DNA from: Polytrichum commune
Taxonomy: Eukaryota; Streptophyta; Polytrichopsida; Polytrichales; Polytrichaceae
Length of the DNA stretch: 64,000 nucleotides
Assembly: GCA_950295325.1 (NCBI GenBank)
Contig: OX485803.1
Span: 13,268,001-13,332,000, forward strand
Direction: 5' to 3'
The position numbers were made by a program, and so were the translations under genes. Each line of letters begins with the position of its first letter. The stretch's first letter is position 1. The notes beneath the pieces were generated by a model, which was not told the DNA's origin, did not search any database, and saw only the letters and a list, made by a program, of their open reading frames with translations. Shown in pieces: positions 2,903-64,000 of the stretch.

Positions 2903-5900
2903 ATGGCGAGGGATGATCATCGCCACCGAGCTCAGGTTCCTTCTCGCCGCCTTCACAACCCTTTTCCACCGGAACCGAAGGGGTTAACATTCCTGGAGGG
3001 CCACCTGCACTTCGACCCGGAGGTTTTACCTTCCCAGAAATTCAAAGCAGGAAATCATTTCACCGTCTCATGGGACACCACTAATGGAGTTCTATCTGTT
3101 TCGCATCGAAGCGAACCGGATCGAGTGCTATGGGCCACACCATCACGGGGATCATCCTTCCTGTCAGCTGCACTGGGGGAATCCACCATTCACGAAAGCC
3201 GAGGCTCCTACTCCCTCCATGACAAGGTGGACCTGCTGTGCACACACCAAACCATCCAAGACATCTGCGTAACAAGAGCTCACAAGGTTAAGCAAACTCC
3301 AACAAATTCCATCAACGCTTCTCCGTCTCCAACTGCTCATGTAGCTGTGGACCCTGATGGCACCGCCTTGGAGGGTGATGATGGTGATGTGGTGGTAGTC
3401 AGTGGATGGTTGTACTCAGATTGTGAGACGGCATCGGAGGAGCTAAGGCGACATAACTGTGAGGAGTTAGCTCAATTGGATAATGATGATGATGAGTGTG
3501 GAAGTCCGTTTGAAAGGATGTCATATTTACGGTGGTTTGGATTCGGTGCGCGCAACAGAGGAGAGAGTTTTGGTGTGCGGTACAGGTTGGTGTTCTCCGG
3601 GAAGAGAGATCACCAGCTAGGGTTTCATGTGGAGCTCGATGATCCGGTGAAGACGAAGATGATGATGAATGTGGAAGGTCATCATAGCAGAAGATTTGCG
3701 CATGAGCCACCTGAAGAGCTATGGTTATGGTCCAAGGAGCCTCGGTCTGCATTTCGAGGAGGGCTAGCCGATCAGAGCATCAACTACAACAAGAGGTGGA
3801 GTGACAAGCTTGTCACATTTCGGAGACAATCTCTTAAGAAAAGCTATTCGTCCGTAGAGGGAGTTTTGGGAAGGCTAACCCTCGGAGGAGACGATGATGA
3901 TGATGATGATGATGATGATGTTGTGGTTGACGATGTGGTGCCACGGTTGAACCGTGTGTTGCTCACATACATGTCCCACCCGGATGAGAGATTCTTCGGA
4001 TTCGGAGAGCAATTCTCGTGTTTCGACATGAAGGGGAAGAGGGTTCCGATCATGGTGCAGGAACAGGGATTGGGGAGAGGCGATCAGCCCATCACTGCGG
4101 CCGCTAATCTGGTGGCATACAGGTAACACTTGAATGGCCGCCATAGCCAACCCTAATTTATACTTCTGGTGCAAAGTCGACCGTGAGTCTTCTCTCTACC
4201 GATCGAGCTCGAGCTCATTGGCCTCAGACGCTCACGCAAAGGACTGTAGAATATTCCTACTTTCAAATGTTGTCGAGTTGTTCCATAGGTAAGCAAGCCT
4301 GTGAATCTTCGACCAAAGCTACCTATGTCACTTACTTTGACAATCTGGTGAGTTTGATGAAGAATTACGTCGTAACCAAGTGATTCAGAGTTGCATGAGT
4401 AAAATCAGTTGGCAAATAGAGCCATCCGGAAACTGTGGGTTTGATCCTTCTTTGAGAAAACTTGTCGTGCATCGCTGCCTATTTTTGAAAGTTGGGTGAA
4501 ACTTTTCAGACCTCCTCTTTCCATCTCTCATGTGCAGGCCACACACATTCAAAAGCTCCGGGTTTGAAGCGGAGTTTGGTAAGCCAAGGTTTAAAGACTT
4601 TCGGCCTTGACATGTGTCTAATTCCTAAGAGTTTGATTTCAAGGTTGGTCCCTCTTTCATGGGGCATAAATGTCCGTTTTCGATTCCAATCCAAGACGGC
4701 GGTTTTGTAAAGCTTAAAACCTCCGTTTCCGATCGGAGTTGGAAACGGACAGTTATAACCCCCAAAAAAGAAGATGGAGCAACCTTGAAACCAAGCTCCT
4801 TGAAGTTGGGCACAAGTCAAGGTTGAAACTCTTTTACCTTTTGGTTTACCAAACACCGTTTCAAACCTAGCGTTCTTGACCGTGTGTTGACCTCCCCTTC
4901 AAACATTGAGAGAATTCTAGGTTTTAAAATAGGTTATGTGCATGGGGCCCGCCGTCCTAACTCTTGGATCAAGTTATGAAAACCTAGCTCGGCCAATTCA
5001 TCCTAGTAAGACAAGCTAGAAAACCAGTTCTTAATAGGCCGGCACCACTCTGTGTATGGTAATTCAAGCATTAAGAAAACTTGCATGACTTTCTGTTAAC
5101 TCCCATAACTCATGGTTTGGGACTAAACCCATGGTAACTTCATCTGCTTTACTGTACAAATAACTCTAGTTCAATGTCAAGAATCGATCAGAATGCTAAT
5201 TTAATTGTTTGGACGGATTAAACCCTTTTTGGCTTTCTTCAGGGCGGGAGGCGATTGGCATACCACATATGCACCGTCGCCGCATTACATGACGTCTGAT
5301 ATGAACTCAGTCTACTTGGAGGGCTATGAGCATTCCATATTCGACCTCACACGGCCAGACCGCCTGCAGATTCAAGTACCTGCTCTTTCCCTGCGACGAA
5401 AATGCACCATTTCTTCTTCTTCTTCTTCTTCTTCAATGCATCATATACACATTGTGTTCTATTTGTCATTTGTTACAAAATATCACTTTGACCTACCTCG
5501 ACTTGAACATTTTGGGACGGTTGAAAGTTGATATGAAGCACTGTCAGTGCCACCTCGTCGAGTATGGGCACAATTGTGTGCGAGGAGAGTCAGTGCACTT
5601 GTAATAATAAGTGGTGTAAAATAAGTTGTGTGAACACCAGTTATAGCACAAGATTAAATAATCACCAACATCAATTTTCTTTTAAAAAACAATTAATTTG
5701 TCCCATGCTAGGTTTCTATGAGAAGGTTAATGTGGGTTGAAAATCAATGTGGCCCACATTAATGCTCATTATGCGAATTAACATAGACTCCAGAAAATAA
5801 CTATGGCCCCCATATATAGGACTACTTAGTGTACTACACTAATTATCCCATATACTGTGTGTCACTATACAGAGTTACACACTGCAATAACATCTTACTC

Positions 5901-8900
5901 AAGAACTCAATTTGTACTAACAAATCTCAATTGGTTGTTCGGACATCATAGAACAAAATTGACTTTGCTTAGTAAAATATTACATTCTCATTAAATTAGG
6001 TATAGCACTTTGGAATTCCAAATAGTAACACGCACTAAATGGGATAATCAGTGTAGTGCAGTCACCGGGGAGTTTTTGGGCATAATCGGTCGATATCCTA
6101 GTGTTCGCAAGTCCAAACTGTGCAACCAGTCACATGCTGACATCTTCCTGTTTTGCTTTATTAATTTGGGGCAAATTCCATAGATTCCTCTAAATGATGG
6201 GTACTTTTCCTGAACAAAAGTCTTGAACTTCAATCGGTTATTGCATTTCTTATACTCAACCGGTTCATTTACAACTACAATGTTTTGACCAGTGTCGTCG
6301 GTTGATTCTCCCTGTTCATTGGTGTAGAGTTAGTGGCACGTAGGTTATAAGTTCTGAGCATGGATGAATTAGTCGTGTCCTATTTGGGTAAAAAAGGTAC
6401 AGCAACATGCAACTCCGAATGCTAATCCGCATTATTCCGACAAAGAAACAGTGTAGGCAGTTGATTCTCTCTGCTCAGTGGTGTAGAGTAAGTGGCACTT
6501 AGGTAATAAGTTCTGAGCATGGGCGACTTAGTCGTGTCCTATTTGGGTAATAAAAAAGCTATAGCAACACGCAACTCAGAATGGTAATCCACACTGATTA
6601 GACCCAAAAAAAACAGTGTTCTACCTGTTCGTTGGTGTAGAGTTAGTGGGCACTTAAGGTGATGAATTCTGAGCATGGGTGAATTCATCTTCATCTTTAT
6701 CTTCACACTAAGTAGACCCAAAAACAGTGTTCTGCCAGTTTGTTGGTGTAGAGTGAGTGGGCAGTTAAGGTGATGAGTTCTGAGCATGGGTGAATTCATC
6801 TTCCTCTTCATCTTCACACTAATTAGACCCAAAAACAGTGTTCTGCCCGTTCGTTGGTGTAGAGTGAGTGGGCAGTTAAGGTGATGAGTTCTGAGCATGG
6901 GTGAATTTATCTTCCTCTTCATCTTCACACTAAGTAGACACAAAAACAGTGTTTTTCCCGTTCGTTGGTGTAGAGTGAGTGCGCAGTGAAGGTGATGAAT
7001 TGTGAGCATGGGTGAAGTCATCTTCCTCTTCATCTTCATCTTCACACTAAGTAGACACAAAAACAGTGTTCTCCCCGTTCGCTAGTGTAGAGTGAGTGGG
7101 CAGTGAAGGTGATGAGTTGTGAGCATGGGTGAATTCATGTTCATCTCCATCTTCATTTTCATGTTGATCGTGATCCCAGGTGCACGCGGAGTCCATGAGG
7201 GGGCGGATCGTGCACGGGGGCACCCCCGCGGAGCTCATCGCGGAGTACACGGGCGCCGTGGGGCGCATGCGCGAGCTGCCCGCGTGGGCGCTGAAGGGGG
7301 CCATGGTGGGCATGCAAGGCGGCCCGGCTCAAGTGCGCACGGTGTGGAACCAACTGGAGGCGCTGGACGTGCCTCTCTCCGCTTTCTGGTTACAGGTACG
7401 TTTATTAATTCTTCCTTCCTTAACCCATGCATGCCACCCCCACTCACTACCCATTCACCCAGCTCATTGTGACATCGGAACTGCTTGAGGCAGGCACCGG
7501 TGGAAGATTTGGGCGAACCAACCCATACACCCCTTCCTTCCTTGCTGGATGCCTAAACCTTTGCCTCCAAGGAACCAGTGTATTGGTTGGTTCGCCCCAG
7601 CCCTAGACGTGCCTCTCTCTGCTCTCTGATTACATGTAAACTATTAACCCCGACCTACGACCCAATCATCCAGCTCGTCATAACATCTGAATTGCTAGAG
7701 AGAGAGAGAGATCATCTACGAGTGCGCCTCTCGTTCATTCAGCAGGAAAACCCTGAAATGGTGTGCAGTGTGGAGGTTACTTTTTTGAAGTTGATTTGAC
7801 ACTGGGATGATTGGCTTTGAGGACCCCGAATTAGTGTACTTGAGGTCATTTGAGATGAATCGGCGACAAACTTACAAGGAGGTCTAGTCTTTTTTTCAGT
7901 TGGATGGATGATAGGTATGCTCCTATACAATGATTTCTCTCTCTCCAGGTTTAGTATAGGACGTTCTACGTCCGTTTTTACTAAGTGTCGGGTTGTCATG
8001 CTCAAATAAAGGAGACTAACTTCACTACATGTTGTTGATATTTGAAGACGTAGTCCAATTTCTTTAAAACATGTGTCATTATGATGTTTGCTCTTTGATC
8101 TTCACTGAACCACTTACCAATCAACTATAGGGGTCCGATTAAGAAAATGAGCCACTTAAGACCCATCTACGTTACCATAGTGGCGTCTGGTTCATTACAT
8201 TTGAATGTTGAAAGCTAATTTTCACACTGGATTGAACATGGTCTTGACCAATGTGGACTCCATGTCAAGACCACCAAAAGAAATCCAAGCATCTCTCAAA
8301 TTGTAACAAGTGTCCTTAACTTTCCAGATGTCTTTCAGATTCCATTGAAGTAGCACTGTTAATTGTTTTCAGCATCTGAGAGTTTTATTCCACAAACTGA
8401 GGGTCAAGGTATACCTAACTGAAGAATGTTTTAGTGAATCAGGATTCGTGTTTCTCATACAACCCTAAATACCTTCAGTTGATGGCCTCTGTTCCACAGG
8501 ATTGGGTTGGGCAGAGGAAGACGAGCATTGGGTGGCAGCTATGGTGGAACTGGGAGGTGGACCAGGACCACTACCCAGGCTGGGAGAAATTGGTGGCTGA
8601 TCTCAAGTTTTGTGGCGTGCGGACAATGACATATTTCAACCCTTTCATTGTTCCAGTAAGTCTACTGATTGCTCGATTGCAAAAACAAGAAAAAAAACAC
8701 GAAAACAATAATGCAATCAGAAGATAAATTACCGTCAAGATTTGACACTTCAAAACAGCTTGCCAGTAAATTCAACCTCTCCATCAGTGTATCCAGCTTC
8801 ATTGTTAAGGTAGATGTGCCTAATTCAATTACTGTCTTATATTCGGACACCTACAGTTTTTGAGTGGTCTATGGTTTGGTGTGGCTCCAAGAGCGGATGC

Positions 8901-11900
8901 CAAAAGACATGTGTTTAAAAAAGGGATTTGAACTATCCGACCGAAACGTGATAACCATTCTAAGTTCAATAGTCAATATTATTTATTTATTCATTTATTC
9001 ATTTATTTATGGGGGGAGCTTATATCAGCATTTAATGAGCACCAAAAATTTTCACTTTGATAACAAATAAGATATTCATATGAGCTCCGAAAATTATGAG
9101 GAAAGTGGCTACAGCTTCAATTTGAATTTGCTAACCATTTCGTACTAATCATGAATTTCCATATCCTAGGAGAAGTGGGCTAGTTGGAAAAAGTAACCAT
9201 TTAAGACTCATCTATCTTACATGATAAAAGCAAACACGTCCATCGGGATTCACATTGAACCCTGAGTTTGACATTCAAGACGCACACATGCTAGAAGTTA
9301 GTCTCCTTTACCAAATCACGGGACTTCGAGAGCCTTTCCCAAAATTCAAAACGTGTCTCTGTGATGACAAACAAGAGGGCCTAAAAATCGGTTACTTACC
9401 TTAATCAGACACCCATCTTTGAGTTGTGTGTGGTTAGGTGTGGATGAAAGAACGTACACAAAAAAGACAGCATGTGTTCAAATCATTAGAGATCGGACTC
9501 CTACATACTCAAAATTTGTTTAACTATTGTAGACTCAGAAGTGAACAACACCGGAGGGACTTATAAGATCACCAGATCATGAGAAAGAGAACCTTCACTT
9601 TTGATAATGAACAAGGTAACCAGACGAACATCAAAAACTCATGAGGGAAAGCGCCAACGCCCCTGATTCGGATTTGCTAAAACCATCTCGCACTAATCGC
9701 GTGCGTGTTGCACATCGTAAATGAAAAGTGCCTGTTTTTAGGCCCAGTTGCCAGACTTACGCTCCATTCTCATTCTCAGTCTCAGTCTCATTAATATTCT
9801 TGGTGGGTTCTCAGACAGATGAGAAGCCTAACAGGCAAGGCAACCTGTTTGATGAGGCGAAAGAGAAAGGGTTGCTGATATCGGACACGTCCGGAGCCCC
9901 ATACATGATTCCCAACACCAGCTTCGAGGCTGCCATGATGGACCTGACGAACCCAGAAACTCGAAAGTGGATCAAGGGCCTCATGTACAAAATGGCCAAG
10001 ACCGGCGTGCGCGGATGGATGGCTGATTTCGGGGAGTCCCTTCCGTTTGATTCTTGCCTCCATTCAGGTAAACAGTTTTCTTTGGACACATACATGACCG
10101 ATAACTTCCAATAAAACTGCTCACGACTTGAGCACTTCTGTACAAGGATTGTGAATTCGCTATCAAAGAAGACATCATGTGTTATTTCGGATGCTTTTCT
10201 CCCTGCACCCACACCGCAATTAGTGCGAGATAAGTAGGTAGCAACTCCAAATCGTGTCCGTAACCATCTGCGGAGTTCATATGAATACATTATCTGGAAT
10301 TCTCGAAGTGAAGATTCTTTGTGCTCATTAAAGTGGTCATGTAGGTCCTCTCCAACATGTCAAGCTTGAAACGATTAGCATATTTTGAGCACCGAGTCTA
10401 ATCTCTTCTTGAGCACATGATGCCTTTTTGGTGTCTGTCCTTAGATTTACACTTAACCACAAACCACTCTACTATAGGTGTCCAAATTATTGCTATGTTG
10501 GAATCAGGCATGTCTAGCTTACCTAACCACGCCATCAAGGTATAACTGTTGGGTTTAGAAATTTGATGACATGGAGACTTGAAATGTATCTAATTTTAGA
10601 TTTATTATTCTTGTTGTTTGCTAATCAAGATTCCTCCCCATAGCTCATGGTTGGGTCATTTCTGCCATTACATTCTCCTCTAGAAATTCAAGACTGCTAC
10701 ATCAGCAACACCAAATCAACATTCACGTAAAACCAAGTATGTTTTGTAGATGTTTACATGGTCTACAACATACTATTCTTAAATAGCGTATTTAGGTTCT
10801 GGTGCAAAATGTAAAAAATCCTAGGTAATCTAGATAACTTATGAATCAGTCCATTGGGGACGCACCTCTTTGCATGAATCTTGGTAGATTCAAAGAAGGC
10901 TTTTGTGTCTATCCGAAGATAAGGCATCAACAATAAGGTTTTGAGTGATGAGAGCTATTGCCACTTTTCTAAGCTTATCCTCAGCATTCACGCATGTGCT
11001 CAAGGACCTTAAACTTCTACTCTTGAACCTATAATTTGAAAGAGGGCCATGAAACTCTTTTACATGGTTATAGATGTTCTAAAAAGTCAGAGAAGAGGGT
11101 TGAAGGTCCTAACCATTATTTTAATGTTTTTCTTCATTTTGATTCCAATCAGGTGAAGACCCTGCCATTGCTCACAACAGGTACCCAGAGATGTGGGCAG
11201 AACTAAACCGCGAATTCGTCGAAGAGTGGGAGCAAGAGCAATACAAATCCATAAAAGAGCAGGCAAAGTTGAACCCACCAATGACTTCCAGTGTGGTGAA
11301 GGAGAGTGTCACAAAACGTGTTGGTGAGGAGGAGATTTTTTATAACGATGACGACGACGAAGAAGGCGAAGAAAAACTGGTTTTCTTCATGCGGGCAGGC
11401 TACCGGGGGAGTCCAAGATGGGCCACATTGTTTTGGGCTGGGGACCAAATGGTAAGCTGGCAAAGACACGATGGCATCAAGAGCGCAGTCACGGCTTTGC
11501 TTACGAGTGGATTGAGCGGTTACGCCTTCAACCACAGTGACATTGGAGGCTATTGTACAGTGGACCTACCTTTCATGCATTACCAACGCACTGAGGAGCT
11601 TTTGTTGAGGTGGATGGAGCTCAATGCATTCTCGGTCATCTTCCGCACACACGAGGTAAACCCCCACCTCCATAACATCGCCCTCCTCAATGTCAATCCC
11701 TCTCTTATTACCTGAAACCCTAGGGAACGGATGTGTTCTCAGTGTAAATCTCCCTCTTTTGTTGTCACATTCCCCTCCCATATATCATGGGTTTTGACAT
11801 TAAAGTAATCCACCACCAAAGAATTCAATCCACACACTCGCACACATCACGTAGTCATCGTTGTAATTATTGTCATTCTTTGCATTGTTGAATTTATTTA

Positions 11901-13752
11901 TTTTATTGCATAATGTCACATGCTACACTTATTCTCTATGATCATGCGTTCATGTTAACACCGCATACTTCTTTAATATCACTTACACTTTGGTTGTCAC
12001 ATGCATGACATTAGGGAGGTTGGAGTGTATTGGGTTTGTCTAAACCCAATTTTAAGGTAGACGTGCTTTATTTGGTTGATCAGCTTAATCGGACACCTAC
12101 ATTTGAGTGGTATGTGATTTGGTGTGACTTCTAGAACGGAGACCCAAAATGACGTGTACTCCATGGCATGTGTAAGCACCTCATGCCATGCCAAAATGTG
12201 TTGGACAGAGCAATCGTGTATCCATATAGAAATTTGTTCAGTTCAAACTTCACACGGACTCCAAGCATGCACCGGAAACGTTCCAAACATGGTCGTTAAG
12301 TCCAAATCAAAATGACTGTTCAAAAAGGGTAGCTTTATTGGGTGGAAGTGATTTGTGGCATGTGCAAGATTTGTTAGTGAAGCATGTCGCCCTAAACCAA
12401 CATGTCATGAATGCAGGGTAATGTGCCAGGTGCCAATGCACAGTTCTACTCCAATGAGAAGACTCTTCTACACTTTGCGCGTTGTGCCAAAATCTACAAA
12501 GCTTGGGAGTTTTATCGCCGTCAGTTAGTGAAGGTGAGAACACTGCCTGTCCCAGGCCGTTTATGGTGTTTAGTGTCACTTACTATTTGGACTTACAACA
12601 TGCTATAACTTTTTAGCATAGATCTACGTTTTTTTTACCCACAAAGGTCAAATTGGTTGTTTGCAACTATAGAACATCAACTATCAACTTTGTACTTAGT
12701 AAGACTTACATCAAAAATAAAATGTTATAGTAGTGCGTAACTTCAAATAGTAAGTCACACTAAATACCATACATAGTGTAGTATTGTTATCTGCAAAGTG
12801 GAATTTCAATGTGGTTTCTTATGGTTGAATGGTTTATGAAGACATGTGGTTCTAAAGTGGCGCCACTATCCAGATTGTTCTCCTTTAGACAAGTGTCAAA
12901 CTTGCCATTATGAAAGTCTCATTCATGCAATCCCAAAAATGACTTTAATGTAACATTATTAAGCAGTGTGCGTTCATACATGTGATCCCTGAAAATATAA
13001 TCATGGGATGCCTTAGGTTGGGGCATCCCATGGTTATATTCTCAAGGCCCACATAAACGAACACACACTGCTTAATAATGTTACTAAAGTACTACAAAGT
13101 TGGAACAAGATAACATAGTCCAGCTCGATTTAATCTGCTATTCCAGCATGCTGCTTGAGAGCACTAATTTGACAAGGCACCTGTTGAAAAGCGTTTACAC
13201 GTCTTGAAAGCACACCCTGATGATGCCCTCCCAACCACCCACTGGCTCTGTCGCCCTGTTGAAGTCTGCTTGAAAGGTTATTATTTCTAGGCCACTTGAC
13301 CACATTGCCTGCAGACTGCAGTGTCAATAATTTTAACTGACACAAAACAATTCGGTGTGCATGTGTAGGAGGCAGCAGCTTCTGGAATGCCAGTCATCCG
13401 GCATCTGTTTCTGCACTACCCACAGGACAGAATTGTGCAGGCACTTGTATACCAACAATTTTTAGTAGGTAGCGAGATCCTTGTGGTACCCGTGTTGGAC
13501 AAGGGACACACGCAAGTGCAAGTCTATTTTCCAGCCAGTGACTCAACCACATGGGAGCATGTATGGACAGGTCTTTTGTACAGAGCAACAGACAAGCAGG
13601 GCATCACTGTGCAGGCGCAAGCGCCGCTCGGGTTTCCTGCAATATTTGTGAAGCAAGGCTCATGGATAGGTGCCCAATTTATGCACAATTTAATTAAGGA
13701 AGGGATACTCAGGGTGACACAAACATCAGTACCAACCAAATTGGTTTGGTAG
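2903..13752 (+). CDS. GH31 glycosidase, YihQ/sulfoquinovosidase-like, 8 exons
   Basis: Exons by phase-consistent GT...AG junctions: 2903-4122, 5243-5375, 7180-7395, 8500-8655, 9815-10067, 11153-11655, 12417-12533, 13369-13752, giving 993 aa. Exon 1 carries the N-terminal beta-sandwich; the rest is the (beta/alpha)8 barrel. The nucleophile is D646 (motif GWMADFGE), the acid/base D757 (WAGDQ), followed by HSDIGGY (Y793). These motifs and the order of blocks are those of bacterial YihQ, which releases sulfoquinovose from sulfoquinovosyl glycerides. Pocket positions equivalent to E. coli Q262, Q288, W304 and Y508 are kept (Q497, Q523, W539, Y793), but R301 is replaced by Q536. There is no obvious signal peptide, so a cytosolic protein is likely. 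Two acidic inserts (about 336-345 and 724-733) are not catalytic. The ATG at 2903 has good context (aaATGGC) and precedes the conserved N-domain. Family call is firm; the substrate is uncertain. Confidence 0.9.
3890..3921 (+). repeat. In-frame (GAT)n microsatellite coding for poly-Asp
   Basis: A run of GAT/GAC codons in exon 1 of the YihQ-like gene encodes ten consecutive Asp followed by VVVDDVV. It lies between conserved N-domain strands and is probably a surface loop. Confidence 0.95.
4557..4873. mobile_element. Foldback element with ~140-bp arms in intron 1 of the YihQ-like gene
   Basis: The ends GGTTTGAAGCGG...TTTGGTAAGCCAA and the inverted GGTTTGAAACGG...TTTGGTAAACCAA define the edges, and pairing continues inward through CCTTGAC and TGTCCGTTT blocks almost to the centre. 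The whole 317-bp unit therefore folds into one long imperfect hairpin (by eye about 75% paired). No ORF or clear target duplication. Confidence 0.7.
5828..6063. mobile_element. TIR MITE in intron 2 of the YihQ-like gene
   Basis: Termini of about 30 bp, ACTACACTAATTATCCCAT on the left and its inverse ATGGGATAATCAGTGTAGT on the right. It is non-coding. Its right half is similar to 12645-12786 in intron 7 of the same gene, and its ends to the element at 694-1137. Confidence 0.65.
6295..7140. repeat. Minisatellite in intron 2, seven units of two lengths
   Basis: Each unit contains TTGGTGTAGAGTGAGTGGGC, a block GATGAGTTCTGAGCATGGGT and a TTCATCTTCCTCTTC tail. The first two units are about 160 bp and carry an extra TCGTGTCCTATTTGGGTA segment. 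The following five are about 115 bp. The array ends some 40 bp before the exon 3 acceptor at 7180, so its CT-rich tails lie where a polypyrimidine tract would be. Confidence 0.85.
7512..7600. repeat. Short hairpin between duplicated exon ends
   Basis: GGGCGAACCAACCCATACAC and the inverse GTGTATTGGTTGGTTCGCCC pair over about 20 bp around a CT-rich loop. It lies in intron 3 between exon 3 and the decayed copy of its end. Confidence 0.7.
7603..7700 (+). pseudogene. Decayed duplicate of the exon 3 end and start of intron 3
   Basis: The stretch beginning CTAGACGTGCCTCTCTCTGC matches the end of exon 3 (CTGGACGTGCCTCTCTCCGC at 7363) and continues past the splice junction into intron sequence (CATCCAGCTCGTCATAACAT matching CACCCAGCTCATTGTGACAT). 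The donor CAG/GTACG has become CAT/GTAAA. It is about 240 bp downstream of the source and is not needed for the reading frame. Confidence 0.75.
7990..8196 (+). mobile_element. Right half of a TIR repeat (family C) in intron 3
   Basis: It shares the blocks TAGTCCAATTTCTTT, GGTGTCCGATTAAG-like sequence and the terminus AAGACCCATCTACGTTACCA with other copies in this gene. The terminus TACCATAGTGG is the inverse of the start CCACTGTGGTA at 13948. Confidence 0.55.
8805..9231 (-). mobile_element. TIR repeat (family C), near complete, in intron 4
   Basis: Read on the minus strand it starts GTAAGATAGATGAGTCTTAA, passes AACTAGCCCACTTCTCC, CATATGAATATCTTAT and CAAAGTGAAAATTTTTGGTG, and ends GTAGGTGTCCG...CATCTACC. 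The outer ends are inversely related. A TTTA simple repeat has expanded inside (8978-9010). Confidence 0.6.
9395..9720 (-). mobile_element. TIR repeat (family C), second copy in intron 4
   Basis: On the minus strand it has GCGAGATGGTTTTAGCAAAT, CAAAAGTGAAGGTT, a GAGTCT/TAGTCC block and GGTGTCTGATTAAGG. It has the same orientation as 8805-9231, 165 bp downstream. Confidence 0.55.
10217..10490 (+). mobile_element. TIR repeat (family C) in intron 5
   Basis: TTAGTGCGAGATAAG, GAGTTCATATGAATACATTA, TTTGAGCACCGAGTCTAATC, GATGCCTTTTTGGTGTC and CTATAGGTGTCCAAAT align in order with the copy at 13945-14315. Confidence 0.6.
12035..12170 (-). mobile_element. TIR repeat (family C) fragment in intron 6
   Basis: The segment AATCGGACACCTACATTTGA...GTATGTGATTTGGTGTG is the inverse of the family C 3' half (CACATACCACTCAAATGTAG). 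Confidence 0.5.
12645..12786. mobile_element. Fragment of the ATTATCCCA-TIR MITE in intron 7
   Basis: Similar to the right half of 5828-6063: AATTGGTTGTTTG, ACTTTGTACTTAGTAA, AACTTCAAATAGTAA, then CACACTAAATACC and AGTGTAGTA. Confidence 0.5.
12941..13092. repeat. Long hairpin (MITE or young inverted repeat) in intron 7
   Basis: Arms of about 65-70 bp around a loop of about 10 nt. The outer part TAACATTATTAAGCAGTGTG and the inner CATGGGATGCC match their inverse copies exactly; differences are scattered and several allow G:U pairs. It is transcribed with the gene, so it would form a dsRNA stem. Confidence 0.8.
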
Positions 13753-14315: not shown

Positions 14316-14951
14316 ACCGAATAAGGGCTCTCTACCTTTAGAGTAAATATATCAATTTATGAAGACCAACCAATAACTGACTCAAGATGTTGCTTTTTGT
14401 GGTAGTCAATAAGTGTGCAATGAGATCCTAGAAAATCATTATTCTGTTGATTTATTGCTTGCAATTGAGCACATTGCTGCATTCCAGAAATCATTCATCG
14501 TTTTAGGCACAATCTAGCCATGAGAGAGCACTCATAGAGATTAACTCATGATACATATGTTGACCAATACTATGTAGGACATGTCTAGAATCTATCTATT
14601 CAAGATCCTGCATCAATTTAAGCTTCCTTAGCATTCTGTTATGAGACATTCTTTCCCTTTCAATACAAAACAATCAAAGCCTCTACAAATACTTCAAATA
14701 ATCTGAGAGAGAAAGTGAATCACTACAAGTTTTGAGAATGACTTGACCATGCTTGAAGATTCAATGACCACATTTTGTCCATAATCTACATGAAGCAAAT
14801 CATCAAACAATCAGGTGTTTCAGCAATAACCATCTTGAGACATATCTGAAATTTGCCATGGATGCAAACAAAATAGGAGTTACCTGTCAGGAGGACCTTG
14901 CTAAATGTATTTTTTTCATTTAAATAAAAAAATATGGGCTTGAACTACCAC

Positions 14952-17900
14952 TCATTGGAGAAGTTGATACTGCTCAAGGAAATCTGAAGGATCTGTCAGT
15001 GACTTCTTTGCTCGCCAATATACTTTATTTGCTTCCTCAATGTTGCCCGCCTGGAAAGTGCAATAACGTCAAAGACAATTATTAAGAGTTTGAAATTAGC
15101 CATGAATCAAAATGCACATATCAAAATCCAGGAATGACTATGAAACTACAATGTGAATCCTATTTTAGGTATGCATTGACAGAATATCTTACCTTCCTCT
15201 CCTGAGAACAGTATTCAAGCCACAGATCCTTATCATTGTGCCCGTACAGTTCAACAGCTACATTGAACAGCTTCCGCAGTTGTTTAATGGCCTCAACATT
15301 GCCTACAGCCACCAAGCTCGCCTCCAATTTGATGCATGACTTCAAGAAATCTGATGCAAGGGCTGGCAATGCTAGCAGTCTGGAACACAAGTGGCATCAA
15401 TGAGTCAGGTACTTGGGCCATAATCTCACACTAGTCTTATGCAGACGCCTATGTTTGAGCAGTATATGGCAAGGCTTGTAATTAAAATCGAACATCAAAA
15501 AAGGAATATGTTCCAATGAGATTGGCCTGTGTGCTCAAAATAAGGACACCATTCTAGGTTCAGTACTTAACAGAATTGGGAGGGCATATGTCATTGCTTA
15601 AAGAGAAAGGAAAATCTCCATTTTGACCTTTTAAAACTTTTGCATCTAAACTCAAGTTTTTCACACTTGAAAGCAACAACCTTCATGATTCACAATTGCT
15701 AACTGGATGAGACATTTTGCTATTCCATCCAATGGTCAAATGTGTATGTGAAGTTGGAAGTGTCCATTGTAGATAGGCCCGCATACCTTACGTACCTTGT
15801 AATCCTGAAGGTTCTCTCCACACATGCGCTAAGGTACTTGATAGCAAAAGCTTTGCAACAATCAGCATATACATCCTCAGGGTTTTACCTTATGTTTGTT
15901 TTTTGGAAAGAAGGACCAACAGCCACAACTCCTAAAAAGTGCCACATATAATGTAGACAGACAACTATGTACCTGGTGTATACTGCCCGCGCTTGCTGGA
16001 AGCCTCCAGCATGCAGCACCCAGTCAACCAAGGCAGATGCTAATTCCGCTCCTTCTTGCTTCCTATTAGTACTAGTAGCTATCATTTTTTCAAGCACTTG
16101 CAAAAGCACCTCTAGCTGCCGTTTATGCCCAACATTTAGCTGAACCTCAGCAACCTGACAAACCAAACAGAATAAGCATCATGATCAGTAGTATTCACAT
16201 GCTGTTGATGATAATTTGAATGTCAATCACAACTTTGATATTGCCATTTGTCAAACGTCTCAACCACAATAAAAATCCACTAATCAAATCGACCAGTTCC
16301 CTTAACCTTGTTACAGAAAAGAGAAAACTGTCACTGTACATCAGCCATCAACAGTGCAGGACTAAACTACAACTAAAATTAATTAGAGCACTACTCCCTA
16401 TAGCATATGTTTGTGACACAGGTTTCATGCAATTGATAATATCTTCACAAGTATGCCTAAACACAAAACACCAGGAGTTAACTATTAGAACCATGTCTGG
16501 TGGGACTGGATGCTCTGTATGTATCAACTTTTCATGACCTTTTTAAGAAGACCATGCCACCTAAGACAGCACATGTGTATGCGATTACTTACGATTTGTA
16601 GCAGTGACTTAACCTCCCCGTTTGCTTTCTTTAAGGAATCCTTCAAGAGCTTTGCCAATTGTTTTGGGCCATCGACTCCCATAAAATCGACATGTTTTGC
16701 GGATAGTGAGAGGAGAATAGTCCACATCCTAGAAGATCCACATGTTGAAGCGCCAACCTTGCAAGACCTTTCTGTAACTTCTTTAGCCTCTTCAATCTTC
16801 CCCCATCGCAAGAGGAGACTAACTTGACCTTCTGCAAGTGCTTCACTGTCAATCCCAGCTGATTCAGCACGTTTGTACAGTCCAAGGAGGGCATTCGCGG
16901 ATTCTTGAAGCTTCCTATCCATGTCCTCCTTGGGCATGGCATTTGCAGTTTCAGGCTGAGAGTCCAACTCTTCCAACTGACTAACCAAAAACTGGGCATA
17001 AACTTCATACATCCTTGCTGTATGAACTGATTGCAGTGCTTCCTCAAACACCTGCAAAAGACCGCCAGCCGCAGTAGCATGACAAGTGAGGCCTCAAATA
17101 AGCCTTCAATGAATTTCTATGTCTGGAACATATATCCATGTTCGAAAGGAGACACCAAGAGATCCCCCCTTGCAGGGCAACATTGCTGAAGTTTTTACAT
17201 TAGGGTCCAGGTCCAAGAAACTTGGGGCCCAAAACACCCCTTGATGGACTTACTTCGGACTCGGGATTGGACCCAAGCTTGAAGATTGGTTTCTCAAACG
17301 AGGAGTCTTTTCTTGAGTGGAGGCCATCAAGATTCGGCGGGAAAGTGATGACACATTAGCACCACTTCATTTTTTCATACCTTGAACCACACACTAGTGT
17401 AAACTCCTTGGGTCCAAAATTTTGCTCTCAACCAATAAGATTGCTCAATTTGGAAGTTCCTATAGTCTTGAGCCCTAGTGTAAACCCACCCTAAGACCCG
17501 CATATGAGAGCTAAGTAAGGTGCCTCAACCTAACACCAACACTGAACCTATGACCACCCAAAGGAATGGGTGGGCTTCATTTTAGAACACAAATCTAGGA
17601 CATCCAAGGATCTTTCATGTATAGTGTTGGGTTGAGCGACAGTAGTTCGCAGAACTTGCAAAAGCATTTCATCATACCTTGGTAGCTTCAAGTCTCGCTT
17701 CTAACATGCCAAGCCCTTTCATTTCAGCTTTGACCAGATGACGTCTTGCAAGCCAAGCCCAACTCTCCTCATCAGTGTCAAAGTCTTGTCTCAAACCTGC
17801 ATATATTTCCTCTTCGAGTGCCTCAGATTGTTCAACATCAATGGTTTCAACAATCTCTAGGAACCGTTGCCTGAAGCTGAGGCTATTTGGAATTGCTGCA

Positions 17901-19888
17901 ATTGCATTCTTATACAAAGCCCAAGCAATTTTGCAAGTGGCTGCATGATGAGAGATACTAGGTTTCTCCTTGATCTTCCCATCCTCTTCTTCCCCTTGGT
18001 CACTAGCAGCACCCTCTTGAGCCTCACCTCCCTCTGTAATTGCCGGCTTTTCCCCTACACCTAGGATCAATCGTCTGGCCTTAATCTTTTGAGCAAAAAT
18101 TAACTCCATGTGGAAGTACTCTAACCATAAAGTTTCAGATTTTGGGCACATTCGGAGCCCCTGTTGCATTAGAGCTCGTGCAGCAGTGACATTAGAATTC
18201 TGTTCAGCCTCCCATACAGCAGCATAGATCCAGAGTCCTGGAACTGTAGAATGCAGCTGTAGTGCCTTCATCAAAACCTACAGACACAAAAAAAAAAACA
18301 AATTAAATTAAATTAAAAAGAAGGGTCAACATCACAAACCTCTAAATGCATATACCAACAACACTGATTTCACACAGATCAAATGACATCAAACTACAGC
18401 ATCGAATGAATGCCTACCGAACAGAGTTTCAAATTTTAGTCTGTTGTTCTGCATTTTAGAGTTGCAGACCTACAAGGTTGAATCATGAGCTAAATCAATG
18501 TTGAATGAATCATTAGCTAAAAGTTGAGTTAGCACTAACGAAAATATTAAATCTGTACGGATCTATCAACACTTGTCACTTGCATTTTGACACCAAGTCT
18601 GGGTGATTCTCCATAATATCCCTGAGCACAGATTTAAATTTTATTTATTTATTAAGATTAAAAAAAAGGCTACCTTCTGAATACGACGAGAGCCTTGGTT
18701 TCGACAGTATTCCGCATAACGTAGCCACAGGTCCAAGTCTCCTTTAAACTTGGTCACAGCCCGTTCATATATCAGCATGATGTGCATTGCACTGCTCCGA
18801 TCGCAAAGTGAATCTCGCCAGCCCTTTCCTTTTTTCTGGAGTTTTCGTACCAAAACCTAACCACATTCAAGCAATTGAATTTACAATACATCCTCCTTCC
18901 AGATACTACAACCCATAGGTAAATCCTCCCACATGAAATACTGGCTTGATGGAAAAGAGATATGACTTTATGAAAGTCATCATCAAAAGAGCCGGCGTAG
19001 AAAAGGGTCTACATCACAAAACTCTGAATTCATATACCATCAACACTGAATTCACATTGATTCAATGACATCAAGCTACAACATTGAATTCCATGCCTAC
19101 CAAACATAGGGTTGCAATTTTGTAACTGCTGTTTCTACATTTTACAGTTCAAGCAAGACCTGAAAGGTTGATTTATTGAATCAAAGTTGAATGAGTCATT
19201 CTATTTGTTGAGTTAAACCCTAAAGGGCATGTATCATCAACACTGACTCAACATCAAACGCTTGCCGGTTGCAATTTGGTATAAAGTCATGTTTTGAGGG
19301 ATGGCATAGAAAAGGTCGACATCACAAACCTCTAATTTCACATAACATCAACACTGCTTTCACATTGATTCAATGACATCAATCTACAACCTTAAATCCA
19401 ACCTACCAAACATAAGTTTGGTATCTTATTCTGTTGTTTCTACATTTTACGTTTACAAGACCCAAAAGGTTGACTTACGAGTTGATTCGATCAAGTGTTA
19501 AATGGATTATTCTAATTGTTGAGTTAAACCCTGAAGGGTACCTTTCAACACTGACTCAACATTAAACGCTGGTTACTTGCAATTTGACATGAAGTCAAGT
19601 TTTGAGAGGTGGCATGGAGTTGTTCTTTCGACATGAGAGCTCTGTCAAGTTTAGAGGTGGCGAACTAACCTCCTTGCGAGATCGTCGAAATTCCTCCAAT
19701 TGGGTCTCATACTCCACATACCTCAAGTAATCCACTTTTAACGTAGAATGTCGCTTGAGAAGGTACTCAAAATCGCGTCTCTTCCTTACAATTTCCTGAA
19801 TCTCCTCCCGTGTGAAAAGTTCTCGATTCTCCAAATCCTCCAGCTCCGGAAGCATGCGCTCCAAGTGATAATGCACGGTATCCGCCAT
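14952..19888 (-). CDS. UTP6: UTP6, U3 snoRNA-associated SSU processome protein, 7 exons
   Basis: Exons on the minus strand: 19888-19670, 18856-18674, 18277-17678, 17051-16593, 16154-15973, 15379-15193, 15050-14952; all junctions are GT...AG and phases agree, giving 642 aa, a usual length for plant UTP6. The N-terminus (MADTVHYHLERMLPELEDLE, then a K/R-rich helix) is the U3-associated UTP6 domain. It is followed by half-a-TPR (HAT) repeats, seen as WxxYAEYCRNQG, LWIYAAVWEAEQ, LWLEYFHMEL and, in the last exons, LWLEYCSQERKAG and VYWRAKKSL. UTP6 belongs to the UTP-B subcomplex that binds the 5' ETS of pre-rRNA in the nucleolus. An acidic/glycine stretch in exon 3 (around residues 210-235) looks like a disordered insert. 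The gene is convergent with the GH31 gene, with 1.2 kb between the stop codons. Confidence 0.93.
17200..17500. mobile_element. Possible short element in UTP6 intron 3
   Basis: Begins TTAGGGTCCAGGTCCAAGAA and ends with a loosely inverse CTAGTGTAAACCCACCCTAA. The same first 30 bases occur at 20243 (TTAGGGTCCAGGTCAAAGAA). The match between the two ends is weak and no target duplication is evident. Confidence 0.3.
18320..18612. repeat. ~300-bp repeat unit 1 (UTP6 intron 2)
   Basis: Starts GGGTCAACATCACAAACCTC and contains AATGACATCAAACTACAGCA and the AAGGTTGAATCATGAG block. The same order of blocks occurs in two units in intron 1 (18997-19305, 19306-19612). Confidence 0.7.
18997..19612. repeat. 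~300-bp tandem repeat, units 2 and 3 (UTP6 intron 1)
   Basis: Two head-to-tail units begin AGGGTCTACATCACAAAACT and AGGTCGACATCACAAACCTC. Each continues through CATTGATTCAATGACATCAA, a TGTTTCTACATTTTAC block, TTGTTGAGTTAAACCCT and a GCAATTTG...AAGTCATGTTTTGAG end. They lie upstream of exon 2, while unit 1 lies downstream of it. Confidence 0.8.
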
Positions 19889-20099
19889 GGCTAACCCCTC
19901 TCTGACCACAAACCCTAATTCTGTTGCAACAATCCCCTGCCCAAAAACCCCCAAACTACACGCCACCACTCATGAATGTCAACATGTATCGGTTGCTTCT
20001 GCTATTCTTCATAGCAACAACAACATCAGATTCAACTTGAATTCCAAGGCGCGACAACCTCAGAATTGAAAAAGCACACTGGAAATGAGGAACTCCGCA

Positions 20100-58799: not shown

Positions 58800-61700
58800 A
58801 TGCGGCCTTCCTCGATGGCCTCGTGCCCCACTACTTGCTTCGACTTCGTTATAAGTCCCCACAGCAGCACTATGAGTCTCAGATCTCTGTGTTCTCCGTT
58901 ATTGGGTGCGTCATTTGCCTCTTGGTGCCTCCGACGAGGTGCAAGTGAAGGTGCTCTGCTCAAGACTGCACGTCCATATTCATATCGACATCTTCGTCTT
59001 CTGCCCCTCGTAGCGCAGAGTGGTAAGTGGTCGCAAGAGCAGGTGTAAGAGCAATAGCAAAGTGAACGTCGTATCTTGTCATGTTGCGTCTACCTTTAGT
59101 GGCTTGCCTCTTTCCGGATCTGAGGCTCTGAATAGTTGTGGGATGCTCGGGTGCGTATGTGGGATTTTGTCTCGTAGTAGACCACTTCGCTATTTTTGGT
59201 GTGAGAGTTGGGTTGCCTTTAGGTGATCTGTGCCCAGAACGTGGATAATGTGGAGAAGGCGTTTTTCATTTTGCACGTGTCAAGGTATTTTCTTGGATTC
59301 GGCACTTTCGCAGACCCCTTTTCGGATTTGATGCCCAGCTGTCTTAGCTTGATGCCATCATCGTCTTCATACCGTCTTCATACGGCGCTGTTTTTCGTCT
59401 GTTATCGAAGAACTGATGGAACACTCTGCATTGTTAGGCAATGATGGGCATCTGACCCTCATGTGGTAACCCTCTCAGGTGCCTTCATTGTTGGCACCAA
59501 CATGGCAGCCGATGGTGTTACACTCGCAGGGTCCTTCCAATCTCGAGCAACATCCAACAGTGCTACAATGTTGTTAAATGTACGCCTATACCAGTGGCTG
59601 GGAATAATTTCTGACCACAGTCTGGTTTCGCACGTACTCTGTACAGTTATGTACTTTGCGCAGAAACCCACAACTCCTCTTTCCACGAGGCAAGGTATCT
59701 TAGAATGTCAAGGGAAGGTGCTCTTCCAAGTTCCAGAATCTGCAAAGCAAGTTGGCAACAGCGAATGATTGCCCCTGTAACCCCAGTCTATAAGCAACAT
59801 TAGGCCTTATACAAATCTCTATAGAGAATTTAATCAGAATGGAGTGTTCGTTCACGCGTTCTCCAGACGAAAAATGTACCCACTTGTGCTTTCCCCAAAG
59901 GTGTGTCTACGGCGGCCTGAAGATGCTTCGATTGAATAACTTGGCTCTGCAACACGCCTGTGCAATCAATCGAGTTATACTTGCTTCATTTATTCAGGAA
60001 AACAGTATCTGTAGGAAAACGACTGCTTGTGGCAGATAAGTACAGCGATGGTGGCAACTTTTGGCAATAACCTTTTACGTTGATGAAGTCTATAATTAGA
60101 CGTTATAAAAGTTTTAGAAACATAACCTCATATTTTTTGGTGCGTGTCATTGGGATCTGAGGATCTTCACGGTTTGGCGATGTGAGGGTGGGTGAAGAGA
60201 CTGGCCTTCTGAAAGTGCAGATATCTGAAAGTGTCGTGGTCGTGGTTGTGTCAGCTTACGGTCTTTCTCTCGTTGGGCAGATTCTCACAACTTCGAAGTA
60301 ACTCGGACTGCAGAGGTAAGCACTTTAAGGCAGCAAAGGAAGGAAGGCATGGCGCTTTCCACGAATATGGTTTGGGTGCCAATACTTGAGGAGGGAGTTT
60401 TCCGGTTTGATCAGTCTGAGGATAGCAGAAAGGGGGCTGCTCCTTGCTTCTCATTCACAAACTCAAGACTACGTGAAGAAGTGATTGATGTCTCCTCTTT
60501 CAAGAAGAAAACTCCCACTTTCGTTCCTCAGTTCTCTACTGAAAAGGGGCAGCAAGTTGTAACTTTTCAGGTGACTGATTCTTCTCAATTATTCCTGTTT
60601 GTCGAGGCTCTTGTTGTGTTGTGTGATGCTGTTGTGTGGCTTTTGAATTGTTAATGACCATTGTAACTCATTTAAAGAGTTTTTGTAAGTGTCTCATCAG
60701 TATTTCTTCTAGGAGATAAACCGGATTGTAGTCCAGGTTAGAGTGCAATTCAGACTATTTTTTTTGTTTTTTTGTTTAGTTTCACTGCAATATGTGTACT
60801 GTAATGATGGACTGATCTCATTAATGTGCAATTGTGGGGTGTAATAATGCAGTTGCCTACTGGCACCTCCTTTTATGGTACTGGAGAAGTCGGTGGAGGC
60901 CTTGAGCGGACAGGAAAGAGGGTGTGTAATCTAACAGTAATTTATTGAGCATCCATTTGGCTATCATTGTATTTGGAAGAATTGGATTTTGTGGGTAGGT
61001 GAGATAGAGTAACAATACCTTGCCCTCGTTTGCGAATCCGATGTAAGCTCACACTAAAAGATTACAGGACATAGGAGACACAGAGGGATTTAGCTTACAA
61101 ATCTAACAAAATAAATTGGGTCATTGTACAGATATTCACCTGGAATACAGATGCCTGGGGCTATAACCAGAACACAGTTTCTTTGTATCAGTCTCACCCA
61201 TGGGTTTTCAACGTTCTACCAACTGGAGAAGCATTTGGAGTCCTCGCTGATACAGCCTTGCGGACCGAGGTAATTTTTCTAATAGATGAGAAGCATGGAG
61301 ACGTAGCTATGGGAATCTGTTTTGTATGTCAGATGTAATGACATTGAGCTGGTATGAATTATTTGCATATATGTATTTTCTTGTTGACAGATCGATTTGA
61401 GGAAAGAGACAATTATCAAGTTTGCAGCAGCTGGACCATATCCAGTGATCACTTTTGGACCGTATGCCACACCGGCGGAGCTTGTGACTGCCCTTGCACG
61501 AGCTACTGGTATTTTTTTATTATCATGTACCTTGAGGTGGATTTTAAAACTCCATTGATTGCAATTAACCTTGTATATTGTTTTAACAAAATTGTGGGAT
61601 TTGATTTTCTTGCGCTTCAGGTACGATTCAAATGCCACCCAAGTGGGCACTTGGTTATCAACAATGCAGATGGAGTTACGAAACAGCAGAGAGAGTTTGG

Positions 61701-64000
61701 AAGGTATGAAACATGTTATGTGTCCGTGGATTCCGAGTTTGTGTATGTGGTCAAGTGCTTTGAAGAAATTTTGGTCACTTTGTGGTTTGTGGTCACTCAG
61801 TTGAATATCTCTGATGCTGTTCAGGTGGCCTCAACTTTTCGGGAAAAGAAAATGCCCTGTGATGTGATCTGGATGGATATTGATTATATGGACGGTTTTA
61901 GGTGCTTCACATTTGACCAGGTATGATGGATTTACCAAACTAAGTACCTGAGTAACTTTAAATTCGTCTGTGACGGCTATGTTGATAAAGTGGGGAAAAG
62001 AACCGAGATATTTTGACTCAACACTGTTGACGCGGCTTGTGCAGAAAGCGTTCCCAGATGTGAAGGGGCTAATCAATAATTTGCATGATATTGGGTTCAA
62101 AGGCGTATGGATGGTTGACCCTGGGCTTAAGGTAGAGAAAGGTTATGAGGCCTATGACACAGGCTCTGCGGAGGATGTATGGATCCAAAATGCTGATGGG
62201 AAACCTTATGTTGGTATGTCATTCCATCATTTTCAGAAATAATTTCATCCCTCACGAATTATTGTGGGTTAGCATTTCAGTGGTCTGTGTTAGAAGTGGA
62301 CATCAACTCATTCTTGGACTTTTCTTTTGAATATGCAGGTGAGTGTTGGCCAGGCCCAACTGTCTTTCCAGATTTCACTAACAAGAAGACCTGTGAGTGG
62401 TGGGTTAAACAAGTCAAGAAGTTTGTTGAAAATGGAATCGATGGCATCTGGAACGACATGAATGAACCGGCTGTTTTCAAGGTCCACCACATTACACAAC
62501 AAGCTGTGTGTGCAACACAATTGTTGCTACTGTGTTGCAATATCTAACCTACTGGGGTTATTATGTCAACTTTTAAAGAGCCTCTTGATTGGATATCAAA
62601 ATCAGTTCCAGATATGCTTATCACTGTAGTTGGTAAATGGTTTTGCAGACGGTAACTAAGACCATGCCAGAGACAAACATTCACCGAGGTGATGAAGAAT
62701 TTGGGGGTGTCCAGAACCATGGATATTATCATAACGTAAGTCAGCTTGTCCATTTCTTATGCAATTGTGACCAATGTCTACGTTTCAACTTGCAATATTC
62801 TCTTAATCTCTCTATGAATATGTCTTCGGGATCGTCTGTACTTTTTCACAGTATTTTAATCATGTGAATGTACAGATAGTAATTGTTTTTATGGCCTTTT
62901 TCGTGATGCAGGTCTATGGAAACTTTCAAGCAAAAGCAACAATGGACGGTATGTTACTTGCCAACCCGGATAAGAGGCCATTTGTGCTGAGCAGGGCAGG
63001 TTTTATTGGTAACCAAAGGTTTTCTGCCACCTGGTCTGGTGACAATCTGTCAAACTGGGAGCATTTGGCCATGAGTGTTCCTATGGCGTTAAACTTGGTA
63101 AGCTGAAATTCACATCCCAATCCACATCGCAAGTAATTTATGGTTGACTTTCACAAAGCTGTATGTCACCTCTTACTATAGGTCTCAAACATTTTTGACG
63201 TTTTCTTTTGCCTGTGTCCAGGGATTGAGTGGACAGCCGTTAAGTGGTCCAGATATTGGTGGGTTTGCTGGAGATGCTACGCCCAAAATGTTTGTGAGGT
63301 GGATGGGAATTGGAGCGATGATGCCATTCTCCAGGGCCCACTCCGAGAAAGGAACCATCGATCAGGAACCCTGGGCTTTTGGTCCTGAGGTTAGTTTGGA
63401 ATCGATCTTAGTGTTGTAATAATTGTACGAATTCTAAGATACAAGCTCCTATGTAGAGTCATGTCTATGTATAGTATGGAAATTCCAGCATTCCATCAGT
63501 GCTTATTGTCAGCGTTTTGTTGCAGGCTGAGGAGCTTTGCAGACAAGCTTTGAACAGACGATATAGGTTGCTGCCTCACTTGTACACACTCTTTTACAAG
63601 GCGCATCTTACTGGTTTACCTGTGGCTACTCCGCTATTTTTCGCTGGTATATTCTCCATACGGCTCCCTTCATTTCGAAATAAATTTGGATGTATGCATG
63701 TTTGCTAAGTCCTGAATTATCTTGGTTGTGGTTTCCTTACGACTTTTAACCATGCCTTTATTTGGGATTTGGAAGGTTTTTAGAATTGGTTAATAACGCT
63801 GTGTTATTTTTACTTTTTGACAGATCCCACAGACCCTAAGCTTCGAAAAATTGATGACAGCTTCCTCTTGGGTTCCATCCTTGTTGCCACATGGTACAAC
63901 TATTTAATCAAAGTTATCAAAGTTATATTGTTGTTGTCCAGTCCTTCTCCATTATATTGATGTAATTCTGACAGCAATGAAAGAAGAAAGATATGTTGTA
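58800..64000 (+). CDS. HGL1: GH31 alpha-glucosidase, heteroglycan glucosidase-like (3' end outside window)
   Basis: Exons: 58800-59022, 60281-60570, 60853-60921, 61132-61269, 61391-61508, 61621-61703, 61825-61920, 62045-62213, 62339-62481, 62649-62735, 62912-63097, 63222-63389, 63526-63646, 63824-63893 and probably 63975 onward. All phases fit. Exon 1 gives a Ser/Arg/Leu-rich leader of about 70 residues that resembles a plastid transit peptide; an in-frame ATG at 58815 is an alternative start. The mature part matches plant AGLU2/HGL1: [16 protein letters not shown], nucleophile D435 in WNDMNEP, acid/base D516 in WSGDN, then [15 protein letters not shown]. The family hydrolyses alpha-glucosidic bonds and in plants acts on starch-related heteroglycan. 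The last listed exon is the least certain; the C-terminal beta domains lie beyond 64000. Confidence 0.9.

Follow-up and report, generated by a model that had tools for sequence, protein, structure and literature searches.

Does a sulfoquinovosidase-like enzyme still act on sulfoquinovose when glutamine takes the place of the arginine that, in YihQ of Escherichia coli, reportedly contacts the sulfonate? The question is raised by a gene of the moss Polytrichum commune, which lies at 2903-13752 on the + strand of the window analysed here (64,000 nucleotides of contig OX485803.1, assembly GCA_950295325.1, positions 13,268,001 to 13,332,000 of the forward strand; coordinates below count from the first letter of the window). 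An independently assembled model of this gene has eight exons, seven GT-AG introns of 0.76-1.8 kb and 993 amino acids, with no stop and no frameshift across 2,979 coding bases. The original prediction, made from the sequence alone, had covered 7180-11655, which is exons 3-6 only, the middle of the larger gene. All seven residue numbers that it gave were reproduced by our model, and the YihQ residues that it named (Q262, Q288, R301, W304, D405, D472, and Y508) are correct in the K-12 MG1655 sequence.

A moss member of the YihQ-like glycosidases

The window protein scored 704.6 bits on NF007746, the NCBI equivalog model of YihQ-type enzymes (cut-off 553); in 14 control genomes, six matched the model and none passed the cut-off. 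In Pfam, PF01055 (TIM barrel of glycoside hydrolase family 31, GH31; 132.7 bits) and PF21365 (C-terminal domain; 60.5 bits) were both above cut-off. The six best distinct PDB sequences were all GH31 sulfoquinovosidases (8r56, 5aed, 5aee, 5ohy, 5ohs, and 6pnr; E 1e-114 to 5e-108), and the match following them fell to E 3e-30. Of the 71 columns in which 81 relatives, YihQ among them, show at least 95% conservation, the protein keeps every one; together with the NF007746 score, this argues that its likeness to YihQ is not due to chance. Since relatives with glutamine at site 301 (hereafter Gln types, sites being numbered as in YihQ) also pass the NF007746 cut-off, the score is no test of Arg301.

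A sulfoquinovosidase pocket comprises Q262 and Q288 (or K and E), W304, and Y508. Aligned to K-12 MG1655 YihQ, window residues Q497, Q523, Q536, W539, D646, D757, and Y793 fall on Q262, Q288, R301, W304, D405, D472, and Y508, respectively, and the stretch from Q262 to W304 is gap-free. Similarly, phmmer against YihQ (5aed) and 8r56 aligned window WLQDWVGQRKTSIGWQLWWNWEVDQDHYP to YihQ WAQDWSGIRMTSFGKRVMWNWKWNSENYP with zero gaps; R301 therefore falls on Q536. The Agrobacterium enzyme (5ohy and 5ohs) has Arg at the R301 site, with a one-residue gap upstream in its alignment. The nucleophile and acid/base Asp of GH31 are kept as D646 and D757, and the pocket residues as Q497, Q523, W539, and Y793. 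The gap-free alignment and NF007746 thus bear out the prediction that this is a YihQ-like glycosidase whose pocket is intact apart from Gln in place of R301. We also considered that the alignment is misplaced at site 301, which is rejected in the absence of any gap against YihQ, and that Gln536 is a sequencing error, which is rejected as Gln recurs across many relatives.

The window protein and E. coli YihQ (PDB 5aed and 5oht) share the GH31 fold, the D405/D472 pair, Q262, Q288, W304, Y508, and membership in NF007746. They differ in R301 versus Gln, are 33.8% identical, and belong to separate clades; unlike YihQ, the window protein is eukaryotic, is encoded with introns, and has an N-terminal extension and acidic inserts. 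Rhizobial and Agrobacterium sulfoquinovosidases (5ohs and 5ohy; plasmid loci L164-L167) share the fold and the catalytic pair, but have K/E for Q262/Q288 and Arg at 301. From its fold family and intact catalytic pair, the window protein is probably a retaining exo-alpha-glycosidase.

Glutamine is the ordinary state of the clade

To place the replacement among relatives, we aligned 96 relatives with the window protein and YihQ, giving 98 rows. Site 301 was Gln in 56, Arg in 27, and another residue in 14; one row had no residue there. When the five pocket sites were read together (262, 288, 301, 304, and 508), 48 rows were QQQWY, 20 QQRWY, and 4 KERWY. Trp304 was present in all 56 Gln301 rows, and Tyr508 in 54 of them.

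A maximum-likelihood tree was built from 97 rows by a quick method, with support from the Shimodaira-Hasegawa-like approximate likelihood ratio test (SH-aLRT) only and a midpoint root; L016, which is without the site, was omitted. YihQ and the rhizobial KERWY enzymes fell in a clade of 23 rows (13 QQRWY, 4 KERWY, 5 QQQWY, and 1 QQQWF). The window protein, with Gln301, W304, and Y508, was nested in the neighbouring clade of 59 rows (43 QQQWY, 7 QQRWY, and 9 others). There it joined Gln-type rows of the Chloroflexota sample in a 6-row group (SH-aLRT 96), and the enclosing 26-row group (SH-aLRT 98) comprised 25 Gln and 1 Arg. Its identity to six Gln-type rows compared was 47.0-51.7%. The label QQQWY needs nine changes on the tree, seven of them forced by well-supported branches, which fits repeated swaps.

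These results indicate that the moss gene is a eukaryotic member of a large Gln-type clade, otherwise bacterial among the sequences searched, and that Gln301 is the ordinary state of this clade and no plant loss. The idea that the plant enzyme "lacks" a family-defining Arg is, as put, not supported by the counts for the whole alignment and for its own 26-row clade. Being without Arg301 and outside the clade of characterised sulfoquinovosidases, the window protein is not filed as a QQRWY or KERWY sulfoquinovosidase. An Arg at YihQ position 193, tried as a stand-in for R301, is found in 23 of the 26 rows of its clade, but the plant has Asn428 there.

Among its nearest relatives, Gln types of Anaerolineae and Chloroflexota (G103, G085, and G001-G003) have the same QQQWY pocket and form sister rows in the tree (the three compared are 47.0, 49.4, and 51.5% identical to the window protein); unlike the plant gene, they are bacterial single open reading frames (ORFs), with no sulfosugar marker nearby. 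In an AlphaFold2 model of one Anaerolineae Gln type (L003; 19-row alignment; mean predicted local distance difference test 87.2, predicted template-modelling score 0.86), 23 sulfoquinovosidase chains matched first, with template-modelling (TM) scores of 0.78-0.81 over the query and 0.92-0.94 over the target. Chains ranked 24-50 gave 0.60-0.66 and 0.47-0.70, respectively.

The 22 loci taken from genomic contigs were found partly with the peptide WQLWWNWE, which favours Gln; family-model searches are free of this bias, and only their best loci were read. Phylum names derive from the titles of the loci leading to the genomes, as the genome handles (G) carry none. Genomes above the NF007746 cut-off numbered 5/251 in the Chloroflexota sample, 11/188 in the phylum to which the Myxococcales genome G004 belongs (9/140 in an overlapping sample), 1/247 in Bacteroidota, 9/246 in Actinomycetota, and 26/149 and 40/198 in two overlapping samples of Spirochaetes and Leptospira. 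A scan of viral contigs gave no match.

Two further pocket types were seen. QQGYF, in 11 rows (L163 and ten of L076-L087, from the phylum of G004), makes up a clade by itself (support 99). These rows lack the site's Arg, Trp, and Tyr, having Tyr at 304 and Phe at 508, and possibly have a different specificity. HERWW, in two rows (L160 and L186, from G382 and G401), also forms its own clade and has no sulfosugar marker nearby.

Gln-type genes in likely sulfosugar clusters

We used gene neighbourhoods as natural experiments on whether Gln means another substrate. In G1072, a genome of the YihQ clade, the sole NF007746 match at E <= 1e-120 is a Gln type, flanked by a YihO-like transporter on one side and by DUF4867 (232.6 bits, cut-off 28.7) on the other. 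Upstream are a divalent anion/sodium symporter (DASS), two coenzyme A-ligase subunits, an RpiB-like gene, and a split transketolase. Also upstream are an isomerase resembling SftI (158.1 bits against a cut-off of 700) and a sulfoacetaldehyde dehydrogenase resembling SauS (525.5 bits against 600). DUF4867 is called SqvB in PMC9594981, which reports it in most clusters of the sulfo-Embden-Meyerhof-Parnas type 2 (sulfo-EMP2), sulfo-transaldolase (sulfo-TAL), and sulfo-transketolase (sulfo-TK) pathways. From its gene order, we read the G1072 cluster as a putative sulfo-transketolase layout. In G010, a further Gln-type genome, genes for an SftI-like protein and a split transketolase lie on a different contig. 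In G011 the Gln type adjoins a split transketolase; this context is weak because an Arg type occurs in that genome too, where no SftI match was found.

Two genomes of the Actinomycetota sample, G850 and G739, carry Gln types from the window protein's own 26-row clade, with the QQQWY pocket. Beside the Gln type we found an SftI-like isomerase (494.6 bits in G850 and 134.1 in G739), a kinase like phosphofructokinase (PFK; 328.7 bits on NF010675, cut-off 273, in G850, and a 63% identical copy in G739), and a third protein that has two domains of the galactarate/altronate dehydratase superfamily, the second and the C-terminal one. The G850 and G739 versions of this third protein are 82% identical, and from its domains we take it to be SuyB-like. 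G850 additionally has an L-sulfolactate-dehydrogenase-like gene (274 bits, cut-off 500), a solute-binding protein, and a GntR/FCD regulator; the G739 cluster was detected by tblastn. Neither cluster has a Gfo/Idh/MocA (GH188-type) match, so the GH31 protein is the glycosidase in sight. Passages of PMC11465081 describe an actinobacterial cluster around a GH188 enzyme ("Y160") with a similar gene set; G850 and G739 differ from it in having GH31 and no Gfo/Idh/MocA gene. They differ from the plant gene in their neighbours, which resemble SftI, PFK, and SuyB. The second GH31 copy of G850 is an Arg type, and none of the markers was found in its 19.9 kb.

Because Gln types occur in likely sulfosugar clusters (G1072, G850, and G739), Gln301 alone neither excludes sulfoquinovose nor proves a different substrate. 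Of the original prediction, the Gln at the R301 site is real, and the step from Gln to a different substrate is not supported; its other option, that sulfoquinovose is bound in another way, is at least as open. As these clusters lie on both sides of the tree, we predict, with the chances evenly balanced, that the window protein acts on sulfoquinovosides or close 6-substituted alpha-glycosides.

Sulfosugar genes track clade more than residue 301

Another explanation, plausible though somewhat short of an even chance, is that the Gln clade hydrolyses neutral alpha-glycosides, for example glucosyl glycerol or a lipid with an alpha-glucosyl group. The missing Arg would then signal that specificity for the sulfonate was lost, and the three Gln-type genes in clusters would have been recruited later, or their clusters misread. 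Several observations favour it and weigh against a sulfoquinovoside substrate. One comes from Spirochaetes. At the loci of four Arg types (G999, G974, G1077, and G950), a YihO/YihP-like transporter and an SftI-like isomerase adjoin the gene in all four, and a split transketolase, DASS, and an RpiB-like gene are present at three; at the fourth, G1077, the contig stops, and DASS is on another contig. Their Gln-type sister in G1064 keeps the ROK and metallo-hydrolase flanks, without sulfoquinovose cluster genes on its whole 19.6-kb contig, and no SftI or DASS match was found in the G1064 genome; the completeness of these Spirochaete genomes is not stated. In this Spirochaete group, Gln accompanies absence of the pathway.

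Counts across loci point the same way. We counted loci of at least 10 kb, with repeats removed, and assigned each to the side of YihQ or of the window protein when one scored more than 60 bits above the other. A locus was scored as having a strong marker if it carried SftI at 150 bits or more, the two halves of a transketolase, DUF4867, YihS, or strong sulfo-Entner-Doudoroff (sulfo-ED) genes. On the window side, such a marker was present at 2 of 30 Gln loci (28 had none) and 0 of 2 Arg loci; at intermediate loci, the figures were 0/12 for Gln and 0/4 for Arg. On the YihQ side they were 11/14 for Arg and 2/4 for Gln, and these YihQ-side values are partly true by construction: the markers were drawn from counted loci (L023, L165, L221, L225, L228, and L230) or their repeats (L243 repeats L179, and L240 extends L225), which match for that reason, and five of the 14 Arg loci are E. 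coli and four plasmid references picked for similarity. Of the two window-side positives, G850 supplied markers and G739 did not. Five loci were left out of the counts: L240 and L242, which have no GH31, and L241, L243, and L244, which repeat L176, L179, and L220. The one QQTYF locus had no strong marker, and among loci under 10 kb one of 12 did (an Arg type with DUF4867). At the KERWY plasmid loci read, sulfo-ED-type genes were found in three of four (the markers having been taken from L165), with only glycerol genes in L166.

Weaker matches, not counted as strong, were SauS (476 bits) and DASS (256) at L157, an Arg type; a dehydratase (276) at L184; YihO at L158 (117) and L156 (77); and matches of 64-70 bits at L150, L155, L185, and L255. 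When 20 flanking proteins from 11 loci were scanned, they belonged to unrelated families, except for a sugar-type transporter beside L158. No marker was found in the stretch read around the Chloroflexota next of kin of the plant protein (L147-149, L168, and L169). Thus, sulfosugar genes track clade more than residue 301.

The reading of the clusters as sulfosugar clusters is itself soft. All SftI matches of the three Gln-type clusters, as well as SauS and the sulfolactate dehydrogenase, are below their NCBI cut-offs; weak SftI matches were also found in 2 of the 14 control genomes, so the 134- and 158-bit matches count only together with their neighbours. For the SuyB-like protein, the only NCBI match is galactarate dehydratase (144.5 bits, cut-off 730.85), and the small SuyA-like ORF adjoining its gene had no Pfam match. 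In the literature searched, we found no activity report for any Gln-type enzyme and no characterisation of Gln types from Anaerolineae or Chloroflexota. On the other hand, a neutral substrate sits poorly with the near-complete conservation of the Trp and Tyr of the site in Gln types, with the clusters of G1072, G850, and G739, and with the fact that in G850 the markerless copy is the Arg type. Loci without markers are likewise found for Arg types, in both of those on the plant side and all four intermediate ones.

Predicted substrate and mechanism

If the enzyme acts on sulfoquinovosides or close relatives, as we predict, D646 would attack the anomeric carbon and D757 would protonate the leaving group; water would then free the sugar with its configuration retained. 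The -1 subsite would accept a 6-substituted quinovosyl unit; this would be sulfoquinovose, released for instance from sulfoquinovosyl glycerol, or a similar sugar. In place of the Arg salt bridge, the sulfonate may be held by hydrogen bonds from the amide of Gln536, the indole of Trp539, and a water bound by Tyr793.

It is improbable that the substrate is some other anionic or polar 6-substituted sugar that Gln would suit better, such as a 6-O-acyl or uronosyl glycoside. Consistent differences between YihQ-side Arg types and the plant's clade, including Q246M, L316W, and P488T, suggest that residue 301 may not be the only difference around the pocket, but neither gene context nor structure indicates a named substrate of this kind.

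Gene structure and other genes in the window

All exons are on the + strand. Exon 1 (2903-4122), with an ORF and a GT donor, encodes the N-terminal part, and exon 2 (5243-5375) has AG/GT borders and an open frame. Exon 3 (7180-7395) contains the codons of Q497 (7315-7317; YihQ Q262) and Q523 (7393-7395; Q288), and exon 4 (8500-8655) those of Q536 (CAG, 8536-8538; R301) and W539 (8545-8547; W304). The codon of D646, the nucleophile by alignment with D405, lies in exon 5 (9815-10067) at 10025-10027. Exon 6 (11153-11655) encodes an acidic insert at about residues 685-733, D757 (11443-11445; the acid/base by alignment with D472), and Y793 (11551-11553; Y508). Exon 7 (12417-12533), with AG/GT borders, matches YihQ GNRPGDNWQF...FAR, and exon 8 (13369-13752), with homology to the YihQ C-terminus and PF21365, ends at a TAG stop. 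The model begins at the first Met of its frame, and an extra 5' exon upstream of this start is possible.

It is very improbable that the gene is a relic, whether decayed or inactive, or that it comes from a contaminant. Its own branch in the tree is long (0.73) and it has acidic low-complexity inserts, but the frame is open throughout, every one of the conserved columns is kept, and the seven canonical introns lead us to reject bacterial contamination.

Two repeats were observed within the gene. A GAT repeat in exon 1 (3893-3920) encodes most of a ten-Asp run and is possibly a length-variable coding tract. In intron 2, a tandem array of about five copies of a 111-bp unit (6609-7155) ends 24 bases 5' of exon 3.

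Tail to tail with the glycosidase gene, at about 14900-19900 on the - strand, lies a gene resembling UTP6 (U3 small nucleolar RNA-associated protein 6; PF08640 88.9 bits, PF24892 33.6 bits). A second GH31 gene, of another subfamily, occupies 60349-64000 on the + strand, with 13 exons read before the window end cuts it. Its spliced fragment scored 370.1 bits on PF01055, and its best PDB match was alpha-glucosidase II (5djw); by eye, it resembles the plant heteroglycan glucosidase HGL1.

Implications for sulfolipid turnover and enzyme annotation

No Gln-type or plant GH31 sulfoquinovosidase is described in the literature searched, a search that leaves key sulfoquinovosidase papers outside and does not amount to absence from print. 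GH188, the other sulfoquinovosidase family, includes plant sequences, according to passages of PMC11465081. For YihQ, a kcat/KM of 6.4 x 10^5 M-1 s-1 is given in PMC11968277, and a review (PMC12312396) describes O6-sulfated epi-cyclophellitol aziridine probes of GH31 sulfoquinovosidases. At least one search of genomes for organisms that use sulfoquinovose selected its GH31 proteins with the help of published signature residues (Hanson 2021, PMC8397734), which the passages cited here do not list. If Gln types cleave sulfoquinovosides, screens requiring the Arg miss a large branch, amounting to 56 of the 98 rows collected. If they are instead neutral glucosidases, the name "sulfoquinovosidase" is wrong for them.

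Green algae break down sulfolipid under sulfur starvation (PMC5638391); the passages of that paper cited here name no degrading enzyme and contain neither "lipase" nor "sulfoquinovosid-". It is a tentative and rather unlikely proposal that the moss has a sulfoquinovosidase of its own, belonging to a widespread Gln-type branch and gripping the sulfonate without Arg, which would give a photosynthetic eukaryote the headgroup-release step of sulfolipid turnover. Should Gln types cleave sulfoquinovosides, this plant gene of the Gln-type branch would be a direct candidate for sulfolipid breakdown.

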